A DNA stretch of 24,882 bases from Saccoglossus kowalevskii (taxonomy: Eukaryota > Hemichordata > Enteropneusta > Harrimaniidae): positions 318,685-343,566 of the forward strand of contig NW_003116457.1 of NCBI RefSeq assembly GCF_000003605.2, read 5' to 3'. A program made the position numbers and the translations under genes. Under the pieces are notes generated by a model that did no database searches, was not told the origin of the DNA, and worked only from the letters and a program-made list of their open reading frames with translations. Position 1 is the first letter of the stretch; every line of letters starts with the position of its first letter. Of this stretch, positions 3,678 to 24,882 are shown one piece after another.

Positions 3678-3796
3678 TGATTAATTTTAATGACCTTGAC
3701 TCTAACCCAGTCATGATATTATGACTTTAGAAAACAACGTTTTGGATATCACACCATTCCATGTATGAAAGATATTGAATGGACAAGCACTTATTC

Positions 3797-4005
3797 AGTT
3801 GTATACCATATAACATAGCAACAGTCGTATACTATACTCCATAGAAACAGTTGTATACCATACTCCATAGCAACAGTCATATACCATACTCCATAGCAAC
3901 AGTTGTATATCATACTCCATAGCAACAGTCAGATACCATATTTCATACCAATCCAGTTGCGTATTGTATTCCATAACAGTAGTCGTATACCGTACTCGAT
4001 AGCAC
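3797..4005. repeat. 26-bp minisatellite in the ATP9 3' UTR
   Basis: About eight imperfect copies of a unit containing CCATAGCAACAG, GTCGTATACC and ATACT. The GTYGTAT landmarks recur at 26-base steps (3850, 3876, 3902, 3928) and once at 28. The open frame on the minus strand here is a product of the repeat, not a gene. Confidence 0.85.
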
Positions 4006-8345: not shown

Positions 8346-11300
8346 CTGTAATCAATGAATAAAGTGATATGGTTGTCTTAAAGCAGCACAGTCTTTGCAA
8401 TGCATTATGGTCAATGTGGGTCACATGCAAGGTATAGTACGCCCATGTAGCATTATTTACACACAGGAGGCGACAATATCCCAATTTTTGATAAAACTCA
8501 TAGTTATCTTTATGTTACAAGCGACTGTGCTTTGTTTACATTAAGTTTGAAAGTGTGAACCGTGACGAGTGTTGCTAGTAGACAGTATTGCTAGTACACG
8601 ACAAATTAGACAGCTTGTAAATTTATCCACAAAATACATGAGCGGATTTAGGGAGGCCGAGGGGGGCGCGCCCCCTATTTTTAACAACCAACAGGTCTTC
8701 GCGCTCGCGAACTTGGCCTTTGGCCAGGCTATCGCCCCCCCCCCCTATTCCAGAATCCTAGATACGCCCACGTAATACATTGACTTACTGCATGTCTGTG
8801 GTGGAACCCATCCAGGAGTTCTCTCGCTTGTGGCTAATGGATGCTTTGGTGTAAGGCATTTGGAACACCACTTTGTCCCAGTACATATCTTTATCTAGTT
8901 TGGGATGTTTACCATACATTTCATCTACAGTCAACAAACCAACCTAAATCATTAAAAAGATGCAAAAAAAAAAAAACTGCTATGAATTCCTACCAAGCCC
9001 TCTAGTGGTCACATGTAGACGTAAATTGTGGTGTTGTTCAGAGCTGATCCTGTTTTATATGTAGTCCTCTGTCCGAAGTCTGCTGCAAAAATTGAATGAT
9101 TCGATTTGAACTTGAATTTTTTTTTATAGTTCAATGTCAAAATACCAAGCTCCCAGATGGAAATATGGCGTTAAGATGCGTTAAGGTGGGTCGTTTCCAT
9201 CGAAAAAAAAGTTGGGGGGGGGGGGTCATCGCCCAAAATATTTTTGCGATTTGTTGACGACGCTATGACCTTTGTTTGTCCTGATTTTACGTTCGATTTC
9301 ACGCATAACACGGGATCTCGCACTGAACAGAAAATAGTCTAATAGATATATTATTTTAATAGAATATTGTTACACCATAAATGGGCCGTGGTTACACGTC
9401 GTCATCACAACACTTGATTGACAATTGCCATAATCATTTATTATAAACCACGTCATAATCATTATCATTGACATCACTGCTTACAATCACCTAATATCTT
9501 AATTGATAACAGTCACCATTATGCATATTATCTCAATACACTAAATATCATTTTTGTCACAGCCTCCTATTGCCATGATCATCATCGTTGATTGTCAAGG
9601 CAACACTCATCAATTCCTTAATCACCATCATCAATGTCAAAGCCATGATCCATCATCACAACCCAATACATATTATAATGCAGTAATTGTAATAATATCA
9701 TTCTAACAATACCTGTAAGTTTCTGTCAACCATGAAGTTCACTTCAAAATCGTCATCGTCCTCACCAAATGGGTTAATGATTGCCTCTGCAACCTGACAC
9801 GAAATTCGAGAACATTTATGTTATTTTACACGTCGCCTTTTTATGAGTATTCCTGCATTATTTACATAAGCACTCGTTACAAAGCGGTGTCCGATTATAA
9901 CTTTAAAATATCATGTTCCCAGAAGGCACATGGTTGTCAGCCAAAACCTAATTGCAAGTGGTATTGTGGACGAACTTGCAGGTCTAGCCTGACATGTAGG
10001 CGTGGGTGGCGCCCTCGCCGGCCGAACGGCATCAGACCCAACTAACGTTGTGTTGGGGTTGGAGCACCGCGAAGGGTGCCTGGAATGAAGAAAAAGTTGC
10101 CTTATGAAGTTAGAAAATTCAGATGAAAAATTGTCAATATATTCGTCAATTTTATATACGCGATCCGAAATAAATGTTGGCTGGGATCACTAGTAAAACT
10201 TCCATGGAGAGCGTTGACTGAAAGGTCAGCATGGTCGCCTATAATGTCATTAATTTACAAGGTCGGAAAATTTATTCTTAAATTTTGCCTTGAAATTGAA
10301 GTTGAAGTTGCCTAAATAGACATAAAAGTTGCCGGAACACTGTCAACATTGACAGGAATATCGGAAAAGCTGCATCAGTCCATGAAAGTTGCCTGAAAAG
10401 TCGTTCAGTTGCTAGAAATAACACCAAATACCGTCAAGGCTGCCAAGAATGTCTTGAACTGAAAGTTATAGAAAGCTTAAATGAATTCCGTAGCATGCAA
10501 TGTCGAATGATGTCGTCTACAACGTTGGAAAAATTTGCTGGTAAAGTCGTGAATATTACATGAAAATTACTAAATATTGCCTGGACTACTGTTAAAGATG
10601 CCAGGAATGTCATAAATGCTGCATAGAAAGTCGTTCACGTTCACCGGAAAAACGCCAGGCTTGCCTGAAATATTTAAAACGTTGCAATGAATTTTGCCGG
10701 AGAAGTCGGCAAAGCTGCCTTGGGTAAAGGGTGCATTTAAAGTCGTCAATGTTGCCTGAAAAGTCGTTAATGCTGGAAAAAGTTTGAAAATTTGCAGTTC
10801 AAGACGTAAATGTTGACTGAAATACTGTCAAAGTTGCCAGCAATGTTGAAAAAGTTACGGAAAATATCATACAATTTGCCAGTAAAGTCGACAACATTGG
10901 TTAGAATATCATAAAATTTGCCAGTAAAGTCGACAACATTGGTTACAATATCATAACAGTTGCGTAAAAAGTCGACAACATTGGTTAGAATATCATAACA
11001 GTTGCGTTAAAAGTCGTAAACGTTGATTGGAATGTCGTTAATGTTGTCTACAAGGTCGGAAACAATCAGGTATTAAAAGTCGTTAATGTTATAGATGTTG
11101 TGTTGAATACAGACAATGTTGTCAGAAATATCGGCAAAGTTTTCTGAAAACTCGTACAATGTGTATACAATGTCATCATTAATTACTGCGATGTCGTCAA
11201 AGTTTCTTGAAAAATCAAAAAAGTCGTCTGAAATACTGACAAATTGCCAGAAAGGTCCTTGGAATACCGTCAAAGTTGCTAGGAATGACGCAGAATTTTG

Positions 11301-13896
11301 TCTGAAATGTCATTTAAACTTCTTGGAATAATGTCAAAGTTGCTAGCTAAGGCGGAAAAGTTATGAAAGGTGCCTGGGATACCGTCAAAGCTGTCATCAA
11401 AGTTGCTGGGATCACTAGAAAGACTATATGTTGAGGGTATAATGCATTACCTTTAACCATCCAAAGTAAAAGAAAAACTCCAATATAGTGAAGAATGGGA
11501 TATAGAGATCGATATCGTGTCCGACGTAGCCCTGTTTTGGGTCCAAGAATTGTCGTGCTACCAGACAAGACACGAAGTAAGAGTAAACAGCCAAGGTCAC
11601 CACCTGTATGCAAGACAATGTATCATATAAGTACTATAAATCCACTGTGCTCGATGGCATTAAGATGAATTTTGTCTTTATTTCACGAGAAATCGGGAAC
11701 GTGCTGCAGCTTTGGGGTTTTGTTATCCCCCTTATGAAAAAGCGAAAAGTTCATTGCTTAGTCGGTCATTATTGCACAAACTGATACGTGTCTTGAGAAT
11801 CGAGCATTTGATCTATGTAGCATACTAGGAATCAGCCATTATTTCTAGCGGGGGTACAGCTGTGTGTACTTCTCCAATCAAACATATGTATGTACGCATG
11901 CTATTACCATATAAGGAAGTCATACCTGAGTATACACTAACGGAACACTTATCCAATCAAATGCGTAAATCATTCCAGAGTAGTCTCGAAATTTCTGAAT
12001 TTCCTGTCATGAAAGAAATGAAACATGTTTAAGACAATATCAGTAGATCAATGAGAAGTGACATTGATTAGTAGGCACATAATCTAGCTTGGTTATATCC
12101 ACTGTTAAATCAAACTGAATCTTCAGTGACATCACAGGGAGCCCAGGAGCTATGATCAACTGTACGCACTCCCTATGAGCGTTGGAGGCGAAGAACCAAT
12201 CACAAGACTGATTACGTACGAACTGTGCCGTGCGTTCGGGCCAACCGTTAATTGTTCATAAATGGAGTCAATTTGTGTAGTTTTCTTGATTTCTTCTGCA
12301 GATATCGGTAAATATAGGTGAGGCTTTGGCGAAATTTGAAAGAGCAACTAATATTCTTCAACCTGGTATTTTTTATAGATTTTATTTTTCATTCTGTTCG
12401 TCTGTTTTTTTCTAGTTTAAAAAATATGAGCTGGCTGGAGCCTTCATCCCTTGTCTATTTCTTACACTAGACACCAGCCGATACCCCCCCCCCCCGCTCA
12501 TATCATACAGTTGATCATAGTTCCTGGGCTCCCTGTGTTGACATGAACAATACAGTGATAGTAGTAAATCCGATTGCTATTGCGTGAAGTTTGGTGATCA
12601 ACCTACGTCAATAATAGCTTTAGATGCAAAGTCGTCCCGTATACGCCCTTCCCGTCTTGCTTCAGCAACTAAGTTACATGCCCAAGCACATGGTACCCAG
12701 AATTTACTGTGTGGGCACAATGTATCTTCAAGCATTTGCCGTTCGTCTTCCGTGAACAAACCTAGACAAAGAAAAGTCACTAACATTATCCGATGTGTGT
12801 GTCTCTGTTTTGTTGTATTGGATGTCGTTGTTGGATACAACCATCTATTAAAGCGCTGTAGTCGTCGCGCCGCGCATGTGCGACATTTGTGTTGATAAAC
12901 ATTGATTTTCCCATAATCCAATGCGCTCTTCAAATGAAAATCACAAGCATGAGGCTTGGCCCGGGCACGACTTGCACTAATTATCGCCAGTGAGTCCTTC
13001 GATACCTTCCAATCACCTAAAAAAAATAATTAAAGCTTGGTAATGTCTCAGTTTGTACTAGTTGATCTGCGCAACAGTCAAAACTTTGCTTATATGAGAC
13101 CCATATATCTCGCTCATGCGTAGCGCGACGACTACCGCCCTTTAGGTAATTCAGTTGTGTGTCGCAGGTCTAATCGACAAGCTTACGTCGTGAAAATTTT
13201 ATAACTTCCAATATCACTGTTTTATTTATTTTTCAATGTGTGCGCAATATAATATTTGTTATGGATGCACACTAGTAAAATGCTGAAACAGCTAAGCGAA
13301 ATGTTTCGTCGAATAAACGAGACAGAGTAGATAAAAAGTTGCCGAACTTGTTTCCTCTATAGCATAAACCATATTTTTGTGGCCATTTTGAATTGAAAAT
13401 TGGTAAAATGCATTCAACAATGTATAACATCTCCGGATAAGCCTGTATCAAAAATGTGTTCGCCGCATCCACCCAGAAAAAAACGCTGTTCAAAAATATT
13501 CTGAACAGAAATGTTTTTTTTTTTTATTTTTTCATTTTATTACTTGTTTACTATGGAAAACCCTTATTATTGCCGAGCAATCTTCGGGACCAACGGTAGT
13601 CACGTGATCTCGGCGATAGTCTCAGGTGTGCATATGAATATCTAAATATAGTCAGAGTGTACGTGTTTTGATTTGACTTATATAACTTATGCAACTTAAA
13701 GGAAAGNNNNNNNNNNNNNNNNNNNNNNNNNNNNNNNNNNNNNNNNNNNNNNNNNNNNNNNNNNNNNNNNNNNNNNNNNNNNNNNNNNNNNNNNNNNNNN
13801 NNNNNNNNNNNNNNNNNNNNNNNNNNNNNNNNNNNNNNNNNNNNNNNNNNNNNNNNNNNNNNNNNNNNNNNNNNNNNNNNNNNNNNNNNNNNNNNT

Positions 13897-13943
<47 letters not shown>

Positions 13944-15200
13944 TTTTAAACAATATCAGCCTAATTGGCGTGCATGTTTTTGTTGTTATTGTTGTTGTCA
14001 CGTGATTACCTGCTCGTTCGTAATGCCACATAGTAGGAAATCGTCTTTTAATCGGAGGCGAGACAGATGTCAGGACTAGAACCGCCGATGCGTTGACCCA
14101 TCGTACAATAGACCTTCTTATCATACGACTCCTATCGTCAGCTCCGTGTACGTTGGCTGCAGTGATCTGAGCCACCTGGTCGATCCAAGGTATCGCCAAG
14201 TACTGGCTCCACCAACGACCAACGATTATTGCCACATAGAAGCCTAGGATGAAACTCAGGGGAATGATGTTCGTCCCCTTTTCTGCGTATAATGCGAGCT
14301 ACAGATCAAACACAGATACGAATCTTTTTGAACGCACACTAACACACACAAACATATGAACTGAAACTACTTTCTTTCTTCAGTCCGTGAAACTGTCGTT
14401 AATTTGCATATATCAAACATACTCGTCTCTAGCATATCGTTTTACTATAGGATATAATAAACATTCTACTCATTGATAATTTAAAGCGGGAGGGTCGTCA
14501 CATGCGCACGCGCGAGAATTGAGTCCCAAGCGACGATAATAACACACGGTAAAAACGTAAAACACTCATGAACACACGCTTGTTTGTAAACATTGACACG
14601 CATGGCCATCTACGTATGCGCAGGTGACGACTTCCCCGCTTTAATATACGTCACTTATGTTTATTTGATTGTTCACCCAACCAAGACCACAATAGAGTAG
14701 TGTATGTTCTAACTTCTAGTACTTTTTCAATTGTTAACAACACATCTCAAATTCTAAGATGCAATCGACATACAAATGTATATAATATACAGTAGTGTGT
14801 TGCGTAATATGCTAATAGTCACGGTCCGTTGTATAAGCCGCATACTTTCCAATAATAAACCCAAGTATACTGTTTAAAATCTCCTTTTAAATATAAATAA
14901 TTTAATGTGGAAGTTATATTCTGTACGTTTACATTCAGGCGCGACTGGTGCATATGAAATAGAAAATGCTTTGCATAAAAAAACACATCATACTATAAAA
15001 ATACTTACCTTCTCAAAAACCCGTTTCTGTGATTCTTGCAATGCATGACGGTATACGATGCTAAGAATATAGTACAAGGCAATAAACACAGCCATTTCTC
15101 TGTACAACAATTTATATATACTTCCTTTCCATCGGAAGAGTAAACTGGAAAACCCTGTAAGACTGGCCTTGGACACTTTCAGTGAATAGGTGACCGTCAT
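7826..15200 (-). CDS. BEST: Bestrophin, calcium-activated anion channel, complete coding region
   Basis: Membrane channel family forming pentameric Ca2+-gated Cl-/HCO3- channels. Eight coding exons: 15200-15009, 14298-14010, 12761-12607, 12003-11926, 11603-11451, 9793-9713, 8943-8789 and 8345-7826. Their lengths sum to 1623 nt, 541 codons including stop. The start ATG at 15200 has an in-frame TGA two codons upstream, and the N-terminus [19 protein letters not shown] is typical. The neck IPLSFILGF gives I76, F80 and F84 exactly as in human BEST1. The GRIRD motif (199-203) leads to the aperture region. The clasp [11 protein letters not shown] places D301-D304 at BEST1 numbers. Exon sizes 155, 78, 153 and 81 nt equal those I recall for human BEST1. 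Residues 369-540 form a Ser/Thr-rich, probably disordered tail. The paralogue cannot be assigned. Confidence 0.95.
8346..8788. other. Bestrophin intron 7 with GC-rich TIR element
   Basis: Intron between the clasp-wrapping exon and the tail exon. It holds the inverted-repeat element at 8639-8770 and a TGCATTATGG motif at 8401. Confidence 0.6.
8639..8770. mobile_element. Small GC-rich inverted-repeat element
   Basis: TGAGCGGATTTAGG (8639-8652) pairs with CCTAGATACGCCCA (8757-8770) with three mismatches. The interior has a gggggcgcgccccc palindrome (8662-8675) and a C-run, very unlike the AT-rich surroundings. It is probably a dispersed repeat; no class can be assigned. Confidence 0.5.
8789..8943 (-). 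CDS. BEST: Bestrophin exon 7: post-clasp segment
   Basis: A 155-nt exon encoding [25 protein letters not shown] and [17 protein letters not shown]. The acceptor is atgatttag and the donor CA|gtaagt. It wraps around the cytosolic domain in bestrophin structures (established knowledge). Confidence 0.92.
8944..9712. other. Bestrophin intron 6: low-complexity CAT-rich tract
   Basis: No gene seen. A poly-G run lies near 9215-9226, and 9380-9680 is unusually rich in ATCA/CATC words (old decayed simple repeat). Confidence 0.5.
9713..9793 (-). CDS. BEST: Bestrophin exon 6: Ca2+ clasp
   Basis: An 81-nt exon encoding [20 protein letters not shown] and MVDRNLQ. The acidic EDDDD run is the bestrophin calcium clasp, at residues 300-304 in the joined protein. 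The acceptor is gtgtcag and the donor CAG|gtattg. Confidence 0.94.
9794..11450. other. Bestrophin intron 5, mostly minisatellite
   Basis: Besides the 21-bp repeat, a GC-richer patch at about 9925-10080 is unexplained. A Cys/Arg-rich plus-strand open frame over it has no splice or family support. Confidence 0.6.
10090..11420. repeat. Degenerate 21-bp-period minisatellite
   Basis: GTTGCC-like words recur about every 21 bases, each followed by GAAA then a GTCGTCAA-like word. At 10875, 10917, 10959 and 11001 a 42-bp double unit repeats at exact 42-base steps, sharing GTCGACAACATTGGTTA. Outside this core, copies are badly diverged. Read on the minus strand, the unit gives FDDIS-like heptads, with many stops. 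Confidence 0.8.
11451..11603 (-). CDS. BEST: Bestrophin exon 5: S3/S4 helices
   Basis: A 153-nt, phase 0 to 0 exon encoding [20 protein letters not shown] and the helix [15 protein letters not shown]. The acceptor is gcatacag and the donor AAG|gtaatg. Confidence 0.94.
11604..11925. other. Bestrophin intron 4
   Basis: A 322-bp intron with clean GT/AG ends. Nothing else is recognised in it. Confidence 0.7.
11926..12003 (-). CDS. BEST: Bestrophin exon 4
   Basis: This 78-nt exon encodes [17 protein letters not shown] and ISVPLVYTQ, the strongly conserved YDWISIPLVYTQ region. The acceptor is catgacag and the donor CAG|gtatga. It is too short and split to stand out as an open frame, but both junctions and the family match are clear. 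Confidence 0.93.
12133..12537. mobile_element. TIR element (405 bp), non-autonomous
   Basis: The left end CACAGGGAGCCCAGGAGC and the right end, inverted, pair over about 31 bases with one mismatch; both continue into TATGATCAACTGTA. TGACAT occurs on both sides (12127-12132 and 12539-12544), one base offset on the right, which suggests a 6-7 bp target duplication. No transposase is encoded. It sits inside bestrophin intron 3. Confidence 0.75.
12607..12761 (-). CDS. BEST: Bestrophin exon 3: cytosolic domain with GRIRD
   Basis: The acceptor is ttgtctag and the donor GAC|gtaggt. It is 155 nt and encodes [34 protein letters not shown] and [15 protein letters not shown]. The residue at BEST1 position 205 is Phe instead of Ile. 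Confidence 0.92.
12848..13145. mobile_element. MITE family A, copy 1
   Basis: The left end is TTAAAGCGCTGTAGTCGTCG and the right end, inverted, is CTAAAGGGCGGTAGTCGTCG, both continuing into GCGC...CGCATG. Interior landmarks shared with the other copies are CCTTCCAATCACC, GATCTGCGCAACAGTCAAA and GAGACCCATATATCTC. It lies in bestrophin intron 2. Confidence 0.8.
13707..13895. other. Assembly gap (189 N)
   Basis: Run of N directly next to a TTTA microsatellite, the likely cause of the break. Confidence 0.99.
13896..13946. repeat. (TTTA)n microsatellite
   Basis: About 13 perfect TTTA units touching the gap; the true length is unknown. Confidence 0.97.
14010..14298 (-). CDS. BEST: Bestrophin exon 2: neck and S2 region
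   Basis: The acceptor is gatctgtag and the donor GCAG|gtaatc. It encodes [33 protein letters not shown] and ERAG. The pore neck residues I76, F80 and F84 are here. The exon is 289 nt and ends in phase 1. Confidence 0.94.
14481..14644. mobile_element. Short MITE related to family A (164 bp)
   Basis: The ends are TTAAAGCGGGAGGGTCGTCA and, inverted, TTAAAGCGGGGAAGTCGTCA, both running on to TGCGCA. The TTAAAG..GTCGTC..TGCGC pattern resembles family A, but the interior is different. It lies in bestrophin intron 1. Confidence 0.75.
15009..15200 (-). CDS. BEST: Bestrophin exon 1 (coding): N-terminus and first helix
   Basis: Encodes 64 residues from MTVTYSLKV through [15 protein letters not shown] to ESQKRVFEK, with donor GAG AAG|gtaagt. 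The start is fixed by the family N-terminus and by an upstream in-frame TGA. Confidence 0.94.
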
Positions 15201-17640: not shown

Positions 17641-17659
17641 TAGCGCCCTCTGGTGGGAG
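17641..17659. promoter_or_regulatory. CTCF-like motif
   Basis: TAGCGCCCTCTGGTGGGAG agrees with the reverse complement of the vertebrate CTCF consensus at 15 of 19 positions by eye. It lies between the bestrophin and transglutaminase genes. Such sites are often carried by repeats, so function is unproven. Confidence 0.4.

Positions 17660-18331: not shown

Positions 18332-18376
<45 letters not shown>
17780..18376. repeat. Degraded dispersed repeat ending in a CAGA tail
   Basis: Related stretches recur: TAATCAATATGCA at two sites, ATTATGCAAATT at two sites, and GAGCATCT(G/A)TGTA(T/C)CAAGTTT at two sites. It ends in a tetranucleotide run, as in an old retroelement tail. The class is not identified. 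Confidence 0.45.
18332..18376. repeat. (CAGA)n microsatellite
   Basis: About 11 tandem CAGA units, perfect until the last. Confidence 0.97.
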
Positions 18377-19919: not shown

Positions 19920-22900
19920 CTAGAATAAAATATGAGAATATTAAAAATACATGTAAAATTGTGACTTATGTGCTGGCAGGTTTAACTGATTACCAACAAG
20001 TTTAATAAGAAAGTATCCATACATGATCAAAAAATGAAAAGGGTTATCCAACCACCATCAAGTAATAAGAAGTGTAACCAATCAAAATCAAGTAATGAAA
20101 AGTTAACAAATCACTATTGAGTAACAGCATGTGTTAACCAATCACTACTGAGTAACAGCATGTGTTAACCAATCACTACAGAGTAACAGCATGTGTTAAC
20201 CAATCACTACTGAGTAACAGCATGTGTTAACCAATCACTACAGAGTAACAGCATGTGTTAACCAATCACTACTGAGTAACAGCATGTGTTAACCAATCAC
20301 TACAGAGTAACAGCATGTGTTAACCAATCACTACTGAGTAACAAGACGAGTTAACCAATCACTATTGAGTAACAACACGTGTTAACAAATCACTTGAGTA
20401 ACAGCATGTGTTAACCAATCACTACTGAGTAACAGCATGTGTTAACCAATCACTACTGAGTAACAAGACGAGTTAACCAATCACTATTGAGTAACAAGAC
20501 AAGTTAACCAATCACTACTGAGTAACAAGACAAGTTAACCAATCACTATTGAGTAACAAGATGAGTTAACCAATCACTATTGAGTAACAAGACAAGTTAA
20601 CCAATCACTACTGAGTAACAAGACAAGTTAACTAATCACTGTTGAGTAACAAGATGAGTTAACCAATCACTATTTAGTAACAAGACGAGTTACGCAATCA
20701 CTATTGAGTAACAAGACAAGTTAACCAATCACTATTGAGTAACAAGACGAGTTAACTAATTACCATCAAGGAATGAGTAAGCCCAATGACAAATACACAG
20801 AAACAGAGAAAAAACCTTGATTTATACAATTCAGAATTCCAGATTAGAATACTAAAATACAAACAAACTTACTTGTGTCTGACTTTTTTAGGTTTTTGCA
20901 GACCTGGTCCTTCAATACTAACTGTACACTGTGATAACGTTGAGGGAATAGGATTTTTCAGATAAATTTTCAGTGTGAATTCCTTACCAACTTGTAATGG
21001 ACCTTCAGTCTGAAAACAAATACAGTCAAAATACAAAGCATAATTAGACAACTTCACAGATATTAAAATTTCTGGTACTGTTTATGTGGAGTAAATGTTG
21101 CACAGTTCTTAATGTGAGCTGTGTTTAGATATTTTTTCTACTATCCTGAAATATCACTGAAAATGAAATATATACTAGCACCAAATCTTTATAAACATTT
21201 TTATTGTGCATATATAAAAGACAGTATAAGTTAGATTTACACATTTCCCACCTGTTATATTTAACATGAAAATAAATTTGTGCGAAATGTTGATGAATAG
21301 TAGGGGGGGGGGGGAGTGGCATAACATGATTGGCTGAAAAAATCGTTTCATTTGTATAAATTAATATTCATGAGCAATAAAAAACTTATCTTTTCAGTGA
21401 AACTGTGCCAAGATGCTTTGCTATAGCCGACATCGTAAATTCATGAAAATTCTACTGTTTATTTGATTAGTTGTTGACCTACCTCTAATGTAAGATCGGG
21501 TGTACGCAGACGGAAATCATCTTGATCCGCCCACATCTGTTTAGTTTCTCTCACTTTACCCATTGCATATATTTTCATTGCTGATTGGTCAGCTAGTTTA
21601 CCAAGGTAGTCAGAACATACTACTCTTTTAACAGCTTCAGATGCTGCAGAAAACAAACCAAATAACAAAAATAACATCACCTTGGCGAATCAGATGTATG
21701 ACCCGGAAGACAAATTGTAGAAAAATTGACTCATACATCTGAGGTATACCTATATCATTTTACACATGATGACTGTAGAAACACTTGGTAAAGAGCAGTG
21801 GTCATGACGCTCGCATGTGTGCCATTCATTTTCCCACAATCCAGTGCACAATTCTAATGGAAATCACTATTATGAGGTTTGACCTGGATGCACTTATTAC
21901 CGCCAATGCCTCGCTCGATACCTTCCAATCAACTAATCTAATTGAAGCTTGGTAACGTCTCAGTTCGCACTAGTTGATTTGCGCAACAGTCAAAGTCGCC
22001 ATCTTTGTTTATATGAGACCCATATATCTCACGCATGCGTGGTGCAATGACTACCGCCCTTTAAACATGTGTGTAGCCAGGTGATGCATTTACATTTTGT
22101 CTGTCATTTGTCAATATTTTGAAGTGTGTGAAATTAGAAAGAACTGCCATCAAGACAAGATTTGGTAGTAAATACCTTTAGAAAAAAAAATAGTCTCAAA
22201 ACAGTCTCACAGTGTAAACATAGAATGTAAACGCTATTCTGTCCTTGGTTGTATATATAAATATTAATGGTACATGTCCAAATATGGTATTACTTGGCCA
22301 TGTAGGATATGATCACCAACCCAAACACTATGAACAGATTTGCCTGTACAAACTTACAACAAATTTGGCCAAAGCTGTGAAATTAATTAGGTGACAGACT
22401 GAATGGTGGGTATATAAATGTTTGACATTACAACAACCTTGCAATAACTTACACGAGTTTGGTTCTAAAACCAAGTCAATATGCTGATCTTTGCATTTAC
22501 TGTTTTTGACGGGAATGCCGGTGTAGTGGCACACATGACTAGCGATGTACACATCAACCGTTCTCTTCTCATTACTTTTATTTACCACTTTAATTCTGAC
22601 GTCATAATCATCTCCCACAGTTACCATGTCATCAGTTTCAATCTCAAATTGTACATCATCTGGGCCATCATCAGTATCATATGTATTTGGACGACTTCCA
22701 TGTTCAATGGCGCATGCAACAGCCATTCGGTTCTCCTCCGAATCTGAAAAAAAAAATACGATACTCATTATTCACAGTAAATTTTCGTTTATGTTTTTTT
22801 AAAAAAAACACAATATTTTTCATGCTAGGTGAAATGTTGCAATGATAATGGTAAATTAATACAAGATCATATATGCCCATGCAGTATCTGCTGATCATGA

Positions 22901-24185
22901 CCACAGTTTTGTTAAGAGCCGCGCCATTCAGTCAATAGATAGCAATGAGGAGTTCTTGCCTGTGGAACACTCATCGAGATGAAAAGTCACTTTTTGATGT
23001 TTCAAGATAGAATTTCAACTCAGGACCCACCAATTATGTCTCAATCTAGCATTGAAGCTCTTTATTAAATCAAACTACTGATTTTAGAGAGGAAAAATCA
23101 CGTTCACACATTTATATAATGACCACCAGTCTATATAGTGACCACTTTTAAGCAGTTCCAAGGAATAATATAATATGTAGCAATGTAGAGACCAAAATAA
23201 TAATTAGCATTTTGTTTATAAAACGTTTTTTTTTTTTAATTTCCTAAAGTCAAAATAATTTGATTTTGATCAACTCAAATAAATATGTTTTTGATGCAAC
23301 AGTACCATCTCATAAATGTACAATTTGATCCCATCTAAAAATAATCTAACCTCCATATGAAGATCACCTGTCTCTAAAGCGCAGTTTAAAAAAGTCTAAT
23401 ATACCCAGGATTGATTGTATAAAAATATAAAGGCATTGTTGAGATGCATTCTTTCCACAAACTGTATAGACATTAATTAACTGGGTTTTAATTTCGCTAT
23501 TTTCACTGATTAGTAAAATTCGCTAAAATAAATCCATGTGATCATGTAAATTAACAATAGAAATTATTAGTTGAATAAAAACCCAGTGAAAATAAATGGT
23601 TTTACAGTACATGACTTATACATCCATGGGTACAGATAGGTCACTCACCTTCACTAAATTTATATAAATGTGTGATATCTTCTCTATCATTTCCAATTAC
23701 AGCTTTGGTACTGATAAATTTACCCACGGCTGACTTTTGAACATTCCTGGCTTTCATCTTGGTAACAAACCCTTTAAACGTAGTGCATTCCCAGTCAATC
23801 CTGTCAGCGTTGACTTCAGCAAATACGAATCCAGTGTCATAACCATAGTATACATGTCCTTGTTTTACAGCTGCCAATGGTGCAGGGCCTGTCCAATACA
23901 CTCCTATTATTGTGCATTAAATTGGGCGGAACAAAAAATTATATTGTGTTAAATTTACATATATATATTTGAATAAATTGAGATACGTACATAAGAGCAT
24001 GCATCTGATGAGTGCCAACATTATCTAGTAACAGACAATATCATAAATAATTCCACTACAATATTACCATGGCAACTATACCTTCACTCCTCTCTTGTGG
24101 GGTAGCATCCAATGCTTGCCATCCACCATATCCAGGTGGCAAATCAGGTCTTGCCATCCAACAGTCATTCCAGACATGGAAATTC
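19772..24185 (-). CDS. TGM: Transglutaminase, C-terminal six exons, 5' partial
   Basis: Calcium-dependent protein-glutamine gamma-glutamyltransferase, which cross-links Gln to Lys side chains. Exons 24185-24082, 23903-23649, 22743-22453, 21643-21483, 21009-20873 and 19919-19772 join in frame to 364 residues plus TAA. The first exon carries the catalytic His (NFHVWNDCW) and Asp ([11 protein letters not shown]). The catalytic Cys exon is beyond the right edge. FVFAEVNAD and YKFSEDSEE match the calcium-site Asn/Asp and Glu pair of TG2 and factor XIII. The last exons give beta-barrels 1 and 2, ending [15 protein letters not shown]. The [16 protein letters not shown] stretch is closest to vertebrate TGM1 by eye, but paralogy to a single vertebrate member should not be assumed. 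No signal of pseudogenisation is seen in these exons. Confidence 0.95.
20046..20776. repeat. 31-bp minisatellite in a transglutaminase intron
   Basis: About 23 units containing GTTAACCAATCACTA and GAGTAACA at 31-base steps. The left part carries CAGCATGTG between these words; the right part carries CAAGACGAG, CAAGACAAG or CAAGATGAG. In the left part CACTACTGAGT and CACTACAGAGT alternate, giving a 62-bp higher-order unit. Confidence 0.92.
20873..21009 (-). CDS. TGM: Transglutaminase exon: beta-barrel 2
   Basis: A 137-nt exon encoding [20 protein letters not shown] and [18 protein letters not shown]. The NP-IP-L-CTVSIEG pattern is typical of the last barrel. The acceptor is tgttttcag and the donor CAA|gtaagt. 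Confidence 0.93.
21483..21643 (-). CDS. TGM: Transglutaminase exon: barrel 1 to barrel 2
   Basis: Encodes [38 protein letters not shown] and [11 protein letters not shown]. The acceptor is tttctgcag and the donor GAG|gtaggt. It is 161 nt and in frame with both neighbours. Confidence 0.93.
21788..22063. mobile_element. MITE family A, copy 4
   Basis: The left end is diverged (GGTAAAGAGCAGTGGTCATG) and the right end is CTACCGCCCTTTAA. The interior matches copy 1 (GATACCTTCCAATCA, GCGCAACAGTCAAAG, GAGACCCATATATCTC, ACGCATGCGTGG). It is inserted in a transglutaminase intron. Confidence 0.78.
22453..22743 (-). CDS. TGM: Transglutaminase exon: core end to beta-barrel 1
   Basis: A 291-nt exon beginning [17 protein letters not shown]. 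It then enters the barrel-1 strands ([36 protein letters not shown]) and ends EPNSS. The acceptor is ttttttcag and the donor TCGT|gtaagt. The Glu residues after KFSED complete the calcium site. Confidence 0.93.
22744..23648. other. Transglutaminase intron
   Basis: A 905-bp intron. I see no gene, only AT-rich sequence with short A and T runs. Confidence 0.7.
23649..23903 (-). CDS. TGM: Transglutaminase exon: end of core, Ca2+ site
   Basis: Encodes [30 protein letters not shown] and [15 protein letters not shown]. The AEVNAD Asn and Asp are calcium ligands in the family. The acceptor is aataatag and the donor GAAG|gtgagt. Confidence 0.95.
24082..24185 (-). CDS. TGM: Transglutaminase exon with catalytic His and Asp
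   Basis: A 104-nt exon, the size I recall for the matching vertebrate exon. It encodes (W)[31 protein letters not shown]. The acceptor is tatcttag and the donor GAAG|gtatag. It completes a Trp codon begun in the previous exon. Confidence 0.95.
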
Positions 24186-24260
24186 CTAAGATAAATAACA
24201 GAAATAAATAGCTAATTAAGAATTCAACAATTAATTACTGACTGATAACTTAAATTATCA

Positions 24261-24882
24261 CCATACAGAATCACCATTAAGACTTTCAAGTACCATTCCT
24301 GTATCATCATGATGTTTATTAATTGTTGTCACTAGGTGGCGCTATCTGACTTACCATACAGAATCACCATTACGACTTTCAAGTACCATTCCTGTATCAT
24401 CATAATGTTTATTAATTGATGCCACTAGGTGGCGCTATCTTACTTACCATACAGAATCACCATTATGACTTTCAAGTACCATTCCTGTATCATCATAATT
24501 TTTATTAATTGTTGTCACTAGGTGGCGCTATCTGATTTACCATACAGAATCACCATTATGACTTTCAAGTACCATTCCTGTATCATAATTTTTATTAATT
24601 GTTATCACTAGGTGGCGCTATCTGACTTACCATACAGAATCACCATTATGACTTTCAAGTACCATTCCTGTATCATCATAATGTCTGTCAATTGTTGCCA
24701 CTAGGTGGCGCTATCTGACTTACCATACAGAACCATTAAGACTTTCAAGTTCCATTCCTGTATCATCATAATTTTTATTAATTGTTGTCACTAGGTGGCG
24801 CTATCTTACTTACCATACAGAATCACCATTACGACATTCAAGTACCATTCCTGTATCATCATAATGTCTGTTAATTGTTGCC
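24261..24882 (-). repeat. Tandem array of partial transglutaminase exons with splice donors
   Basis: Seven units start at CCATACAG (24261, 24354, 24447, 24540, 24630, 24723, 24813), spaced 93, 93, 93, 90, 93 and 90 bases; the last runs off the window. On the minus strand each unit ends with coding sequence like IDRHYDD, TGMVLES and NGDSVW. This is the family segment directly before NFHVW. It is followed by a donor (GTAAGT in five of seven units) and about 40 bases of intron. The true full exon must lie at or beyond the right edge. See findings. Confidence 0.9.

Follow-up and report, generated by a model that had tools for sequence, protein, structure and literature searches.

Tandem copies of an exon end and its splice donor in a transglutaminase gene of Saccoglossus kowalevskii

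The array and its host gene

We analysed a stretch of 24,882 nucleotides (the window, C1003:318685-343566; NCBI contig NW_003116457.1) of the S. kowalevskii genome assembly, which comprises 572 Mb in 4830 contigs. At the right end of the window, TRF reported a 93-bp tandem array of 6.7 copies (24260-24880, 91% matches). The whole visible array, read on the minus strand, occupies 24260..24882 and consists of 6.7 units of 90/93 bp, its right end being cut by a run of N. Seven minus-strand exon ends (TCTGTATG) were located at window positions 24814, 24724, 24631, 24541, 24448, 24355 and 24262, spaced by 90, 93, 90, 93, 93 and 93 bp, which bears out the seven exon-end units of 90-93 bp described in the initial annotation. 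A full unit is composed of a 24-nt intron head (GTAAGTCAGATAGCGCCACCTAGT and variants) and an exon tail of 66 or 69 nt, and the transglutaminase reading of each tail is 22 full codons plus two bases. The array has the features of a minisatellite: the units lie head to tail and differ slightly from each other, and each of them contains an exon end and an intron start.

In order of transcription (u0 to u6, all on the minus strand), the tail u0 adjoining the run of N is 69 nt long (24814..24882, donor GTAAGTAAG); this tail may be the genuine end of the exon or a further copy, and is followed by a 24-nt intron head at 24790..24813. The tail u1 (24724..24789, 66 nt, donor GTAAGTCAG, intron head 24700..24723) has one codon fewer before SVW. 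It is followed by u2 (24631..24699, 69 nt, donor GTAAGTCAG, intron head 24607..24630) and by u3 (24541..24606, 66 nt, donor GTAAATCAG, intron head 24517..24540), which has one Asp codon (GAT) fewer; both of these 3-base losses, in the units ending at 24724 and 24541, are as previously annotated. Two further 69-nt tails, u4 (24448..24516, donor GTAAGTAAG, intron head 24424..24447) and u5 (24355..24423, donor GTAAGTCAG, intron head 24331..24354), precede the last copy, u6 (24262..24330, 69 nt, donor GTGATAA). In the window at 24187-24265, this last copy stops at its donor GT and continues with GTGATAATTT as unique intron.

The next exon on the minus strand (24082..24185, donor GTATAG) encodes the region of the catalytic His and Asp, and the following transglutaminase exon lies at 23649..23903 (donor GTGAGT). 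A query joining one exon tail with these two exons matched 18 distinct solved-structure sequences (best E 2.7e-41), namely transglutaminases 3 and 2, factor XIII, a further transglutaminase and protein 4.2. The best alignment begins at residue 2 of the query, within the tail, and the transglutaminase 2 matches begin at residue 15. Transglut_N was matched by an exon beyond the run of N and Transglut_C by two stretches farther downstream. Judged by its N and C domains and the aligned His/Asp region, the gene hosting the array is a transglutaminase. The Cys exon of the transglutaminase core was not seen in the visible sequence; its place is presumably within the run of N. A scan against Pfam with 34 residues from one exon yielded no match, and the Transglut_core model compared with the joined tail and exons gave 0 families. 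When the whole genome was searched with Transglut_core, four matches were obtained (one on C688, two on C2724 and one on C4441); the first of these lies inside a paralog described below, and none of the four represents the missing exon, as judged for the C2724 and C4441 matches by a brief look.

Three paralogs were found in the same genome, one on C688 (L028) and two on C3085 (L029 and L030), the latter about 60 kb apart. In all three, the exon at this place is 139 nt long, reads from VLR.LGIP to SVW (NVW in one), ends in the same phase and has the donor GTAAGA, GTGAGA or GTAAGA, respectively. The exon end in the array was placed by these paralogs together with the alignment to solved transglutaminases. 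Since the paralog exons are continuous across the left edge of the unit, the units are truncated exon copies; by this comparison, the tail that is repeated corresponds to the second half of an ordinary exon, the first half of which is present in no visible unit. Beside the C688 paralog, there is a 29-bp minisatellite of 14.5 copies (L028 1-421).

The run of N extends over 10,834 bp (C1003:343567-354400) and begins inside the seventh copy. On its far side, a 29-bp minisatellite (L003 6502-6756) is followed by the N-terminal exon. From the repeats on both sides, we infer that the run of N is an assembly gap. It hides the middle exons of the gene, presumably including the body of the exon and the first donor, the productive one. 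As the array runs into N, the joined copy and the true first donor are hidden, so that the latter is not nameable from this assembly, and seven, the last of which is cut by the run, is a minimum copy number. Extension of the contig to the right, proposed in the initial annotation as a way to the full exon, meets this run before the full exon is reached.

Several other repeats are present in the window. A 31-bp minisatellite lies in the same gene between two C-terminal exons (20057-20760, with 21.4 copies at 20101-20760), and the repeats at 3796-4004, 10830-11025, 13896-13946 and 18332-18376 are 26 and 42 bp minisatellites and TTTA and ACAG microsatellites.

Splice donors and variation among units

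The donors fall into the classes reported earlier, i.e. the strong GTAAGT in five units, GTAAAT in one and GTGATA in the last copy. A message that passes the first donor reads, in frame, TCT GTA TGG TAA. The annotated outcome, termination ahead of the exon with the catalytic His, thus holds for the sequence of the visible copies; the productive first donor itself presumably falls within the stretch of N. Departure from the consensus does not in itself inactivate a donor, since the next exon of this very gene uses GTATAG. Judging from the sequence of the last copy, the original donor could have been GTGATA, with the strong GTAAGT donors created at unit junctions; alternatively, the intron head could have been lost from the last copy.

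Among the aligned units, 13 of the 93 columns are variable, 2 of 24 in the intron part and 11 of 69 in the exon part. The intron half is therefore not less conserved than the exon half, in line with the initial annotation. The exon tails require a minimum of 12 changes, 11 of them replacement and one silent. Under random substitution, 21-27% of changes would be silent, and the probability of observing at most one silent change in 12 is 0.12-0.25. Purifying selection on the exon tails thus left no signal among these 12 changes. All seven tails are open, as had been pointed out, but this is what chance predicts: the probability that 12 random substitutions create no stop is 0.69-0.91. Open frames and the absent silent bias match neutral expectation, neutrality being deduced here from non-rejection on only 12 changes. 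Two length changes that are each divisible by three would be expected by chance in about 1 in 9 cases; the two 3-base losses, few as they are, mildly suggest frame keeping.

Three invariant blocks of 18 nt are present in the unit, and an invariant run of at least 18 columns appeared in 60% of shuffles. The block that includes the CTCF-type motif described below is no more conserved than the other two. A probability of 0.047 obtained for the 18 columns of this block was set aside, as the block had been picked after looking.

CTCF-type motifs in the array and the genome

An addition to the initial annotation, which had not mentioned them, are motifs resembling the pattern CCASYAGRKGGCRSYA, which we take to be the CTCF consensus. 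On the plus strand, all six visible intron heads contain TCACTAGGTGGCGCTA or CCACTAGGTGGCGCTA, with 0-1 mismatch to this consensus. The motifs are located at 24422-24437 and 24698-24713 (0 mismatch) and at 24329..24344, 24515-24530, 24605-24620 and 24788-24803 (1 mismatch), so that, in all six cases where a visible donor has an intron head, a CTCF-type site follows about 10 nt later. With up to 2 mismatches allowed, the pattern was found at seven places in the window, six of them in the array, versus 0.20 expected. The seventh, a strict site (CCACCAGAGGGCGCTA, 17641-17656), is on the minus strand, in opposite orientation and 6.8 kb from the array; it is situated downstream of the last recognised exon of the gene.

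Genome-wide, the strict pattern occurred 267 times, compared with 3 matches of the reversed pattern, 4 of the swapped pattern and 5-10 expected from Markov models (orders 1-3, built on 70,572 bases); these matches are not all independent, the 100 listed forming 84 clusters. The exact 16-mer CCACTAGGTGGCGCTA was found 10 times among the 100 strict matches listed, eight times outside the array, versus 0.02-0.04 expected. The 13-base core of the pattern matched 834 times versus 58 expected, its reversal 34 times. By these counts, CTCF-type sites are over-used by this genome. A dispersed mobile element was rejected as the source of the motif, as an 18-mer is restricted in the genome to this array and the flanks of five other sites (L010-L014, 5 of the 267) appeared unrelated by eye. 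No CTCF gene was recognised with vertebrate fingers as queries, a search that an intron-split gene could escape. The CTCF-finger searches retrieved zinc-finger genes with 36-44% and 33-42% among the first ten matches listed of each, and the CTCF-like helix set was absent from nine zinc-finger loci read on both strands.

We also examined tandem pairs of the 13-base core with a period of 25-55, a range outside which fall both the array in the window and a 57-bp CTCF-core minisatellite on C1650 (L032 966-1396). The scan gave 27 rows (25 + 2) for the core and 0 for the reversed pattern, which read as four arrays (C352, C4122, C3164 and C4171) and three pairs (C2072, C3168 and C4224). For a control motif, there were 15 rows (12 + 3), and 9 for its reversed pattern; the control rows read as two arrays (C182 and C2718) and two pairs (C1007 and C3933). 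TRF confirmed CTCF-core minisatellites of 33 bp on C352 (L031 876-1364), 30 bp on C4122 (L045 1482-2372) and 31 bp on C3164 (L042 1462-1619), and found no array at the C3168 and C2072 pairs. The 39-bp array of three copies on C4171, the C4224 pair and the control arrays on C182 and C2718 are taken from the tandem-pair scan alone. Each unit of the unrelated minisatellites on C352, C4122, C3164 and C1650 contains a CTCF-type core. No enrichment of CTCF-motif minisatellites was apparent, with four arrays for 834 core sites versus two for 454 sites of the one control motif on which this comparison rests.

Possible origin of the array and comparison with known systems

From these sequence comparisons, we consider it very probable that the array is a neutral minisatellite that straddles an exon-intron boundary; every test run agrees with chance or is silent. 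This reading is favoured by the 13 variable columns in 93, the 11:1 ratio of replacement to silent changes and the lack of a block that stands out, as well as by the uninterrupted paralog exons, the minisatellite-rich surroundings and the formation of motif arrays at the control rate. According to the proposed scenario, a segment comprising the terminal 69 nt of a transglutaminase exon plus the 24 nt at the start of its intron would have been tandemly duplicated amid several other minisatellites, and would then have expanded by unequal exchange or slippage, perhaps with partial homogenisation, the CTCF-type motif being carried along in the unit. Productive mRNA would use the first donor, in the gap, and the visible copies would be removed as intron. 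Some leak to the later strong donors might append Trp-stop to the message, and the resulting transcripts would be degraded or encode a protein cut before the catalytic His. Against the neutral reading, though not strongly, it can be held that neither length change shifts the frame and that seven open tails would also fit constraint, that five of the seven donors are still GTAAGT, and that the presence of a motif over-used by the genome in the intron head would be a coincidence.

The same donors could instead constitute an unproductive-splicing switch, in which spare donors compete with the first one, the share of Trp-stop messages sets the transglutaminase output and the number of copies provides the tuning. 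The strong donors in five of seven units, the stop reached before the His exon whenever the first donor is skipped, and the human IFI6 minisatellite, several donors of which are used according to the part of the report available (PMC4526556), would all be compatible with such a switch. The donors and exon tails nevertheless vary without detectable constraint, there is one degraded donor and the final one is weak, and a neutral array would leak likewise, so that we regard the switch as unlikely. Of the earlier interpretation, the anatomy and the stop outcome stand, and the simpler cause that it had allowed for, expansion or homogenisation, is favoured by the tests; no result supports the regulated decoy or switch. 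If the CTCF-type sites were what mattered, the exon tails would be mere passengers of an intragenic row of sites that acts on chromatin as a boundary or by polymerase pausing. Such a function is suggested by the six motifs with their strict companion, by the excess of the strict pattern over its reversed, swapped and Markov controls, and by the recurrence of the 16-mer among the matches listed. It appears less likely still, given that the motif block is conserved no more than two other blocks of 18 nt and that arrays of the core are no commoner than those of the control motif. Both ideas would be combined in a chromatin-tuned ladder of donors, where a factor bound to the sites pauses the polymerase past successive donors and thereby shifts the balance between the first and later ones. 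We hold this to be very improbable; if true, array length and DNA methylation would set the transglutaminase output.

The remaining two explanations were given hardly any credence. Each unit might be a mini-exon that has an acceptor (CCACCTAG) ahead of its tail and a donor of its own, the units being separated by spacers of 24 nt that are too short to be spliced out, so that one tail variant is chosen at a time and the segment before the catalytic His is diversified. The fact that 11 of the 12 changes between tails alter the protein would agree with this, but the 11:1 ratio is within chance and all three paralogs have an uninterrupted exon here. Moreover, several AG dinucleotides occur just upstream of the supposed acceptor, and by the rule of splicing these should be used first. 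The pyrimidine content of the candidate acceptors (0.41-0.47) falls at the lower end of the range of five real acceptors (0.41-0.82), i.e. weak but overlapping. As for an assembly artefact, whereby the animal would possess fewer copies than the assembly, the array does adjoin a 10.8-kb run of N with a minisatellite on the other side too. On the other hand, the copies differ at 13 columns and by two distinct 3-base losses, and on its downstream side the array passes into unique sequence.

Repeated donors, a guaranteed stop and CTCF-type sites form an unusual combination that lends itself to testing. Should the cell use these donors, they would represent a natural titration series for donor competition, in which at least seven near-identical 5' splice sites stand in a row and the first is the sole productive one, and donor number would probably vary between individuals. 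Otherwise, the array would clearly exemplify a neutral minisatellite that is tolerated at a splice junction essential for catalysis, and would have a bearing on how the first donor is selected when many are equal. In either event, automatic gene prediction will probably get the position of this exon wrong, and the assembly breaks here as well.

A minisatellite with multiple splice donors was reportedly described in the human gene IFI6 (6-16, G1P3) by Turri, Cuin and Porter in 1995. Two downstream repeat units of IFI6 serve as donors, giving rise to three mRNA species, as stated in the portion of the report at hand (PMC4526556). The two arrays are alike in that tandem units at an exon end supply repeated splice donors. 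As far as that portion describes them, the IFI6 products are productive isoforms, whereas the later donors of the present array run into a stop; donor use was demonstrated for IFI6, whereas the present array is known from its sequence. The present unit of 90-93 bp with a CTCF-type motif is likewise unlike that of IFI6. Tandem repeats that bind CTCF have been described in the excerpted texts on DXZ4 (PMC3491370), Firre (PMC4391730) and D4Z4 (PMC2639723), with which the array shares a CTCF site per unit, predicted in our case. These are macrosatellites with kilobase units for which, in the same excerpts, binding was shown; here, the units are of 93 bp and intragenic, and the motifs were recognised in the sequence alone. 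In Drosophila, the accessible part of one study presents partial tandem exon duplication as a source of new introns (PMC2891723). This resembles the present array in that partial duplication of an exon brings extra splice signals, but the Drosophila introns, as presented there, arose from single duplications, whereas here a long array of exon tails lacks a convincing acceptor. CTCF bound near exons can raise their inclusion in human cells, and intronic minisatellites were linked to alternative splicing in C. elegans, according to the sections available of the respective reports (PMC8373115 and PMC4039745). A unit joining exon tail, donor and CTCF site was not described in the literature searched. 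By analogy with IFI6, the array would probably belong to a kind already known, that of minisatellites supplying splice donors.
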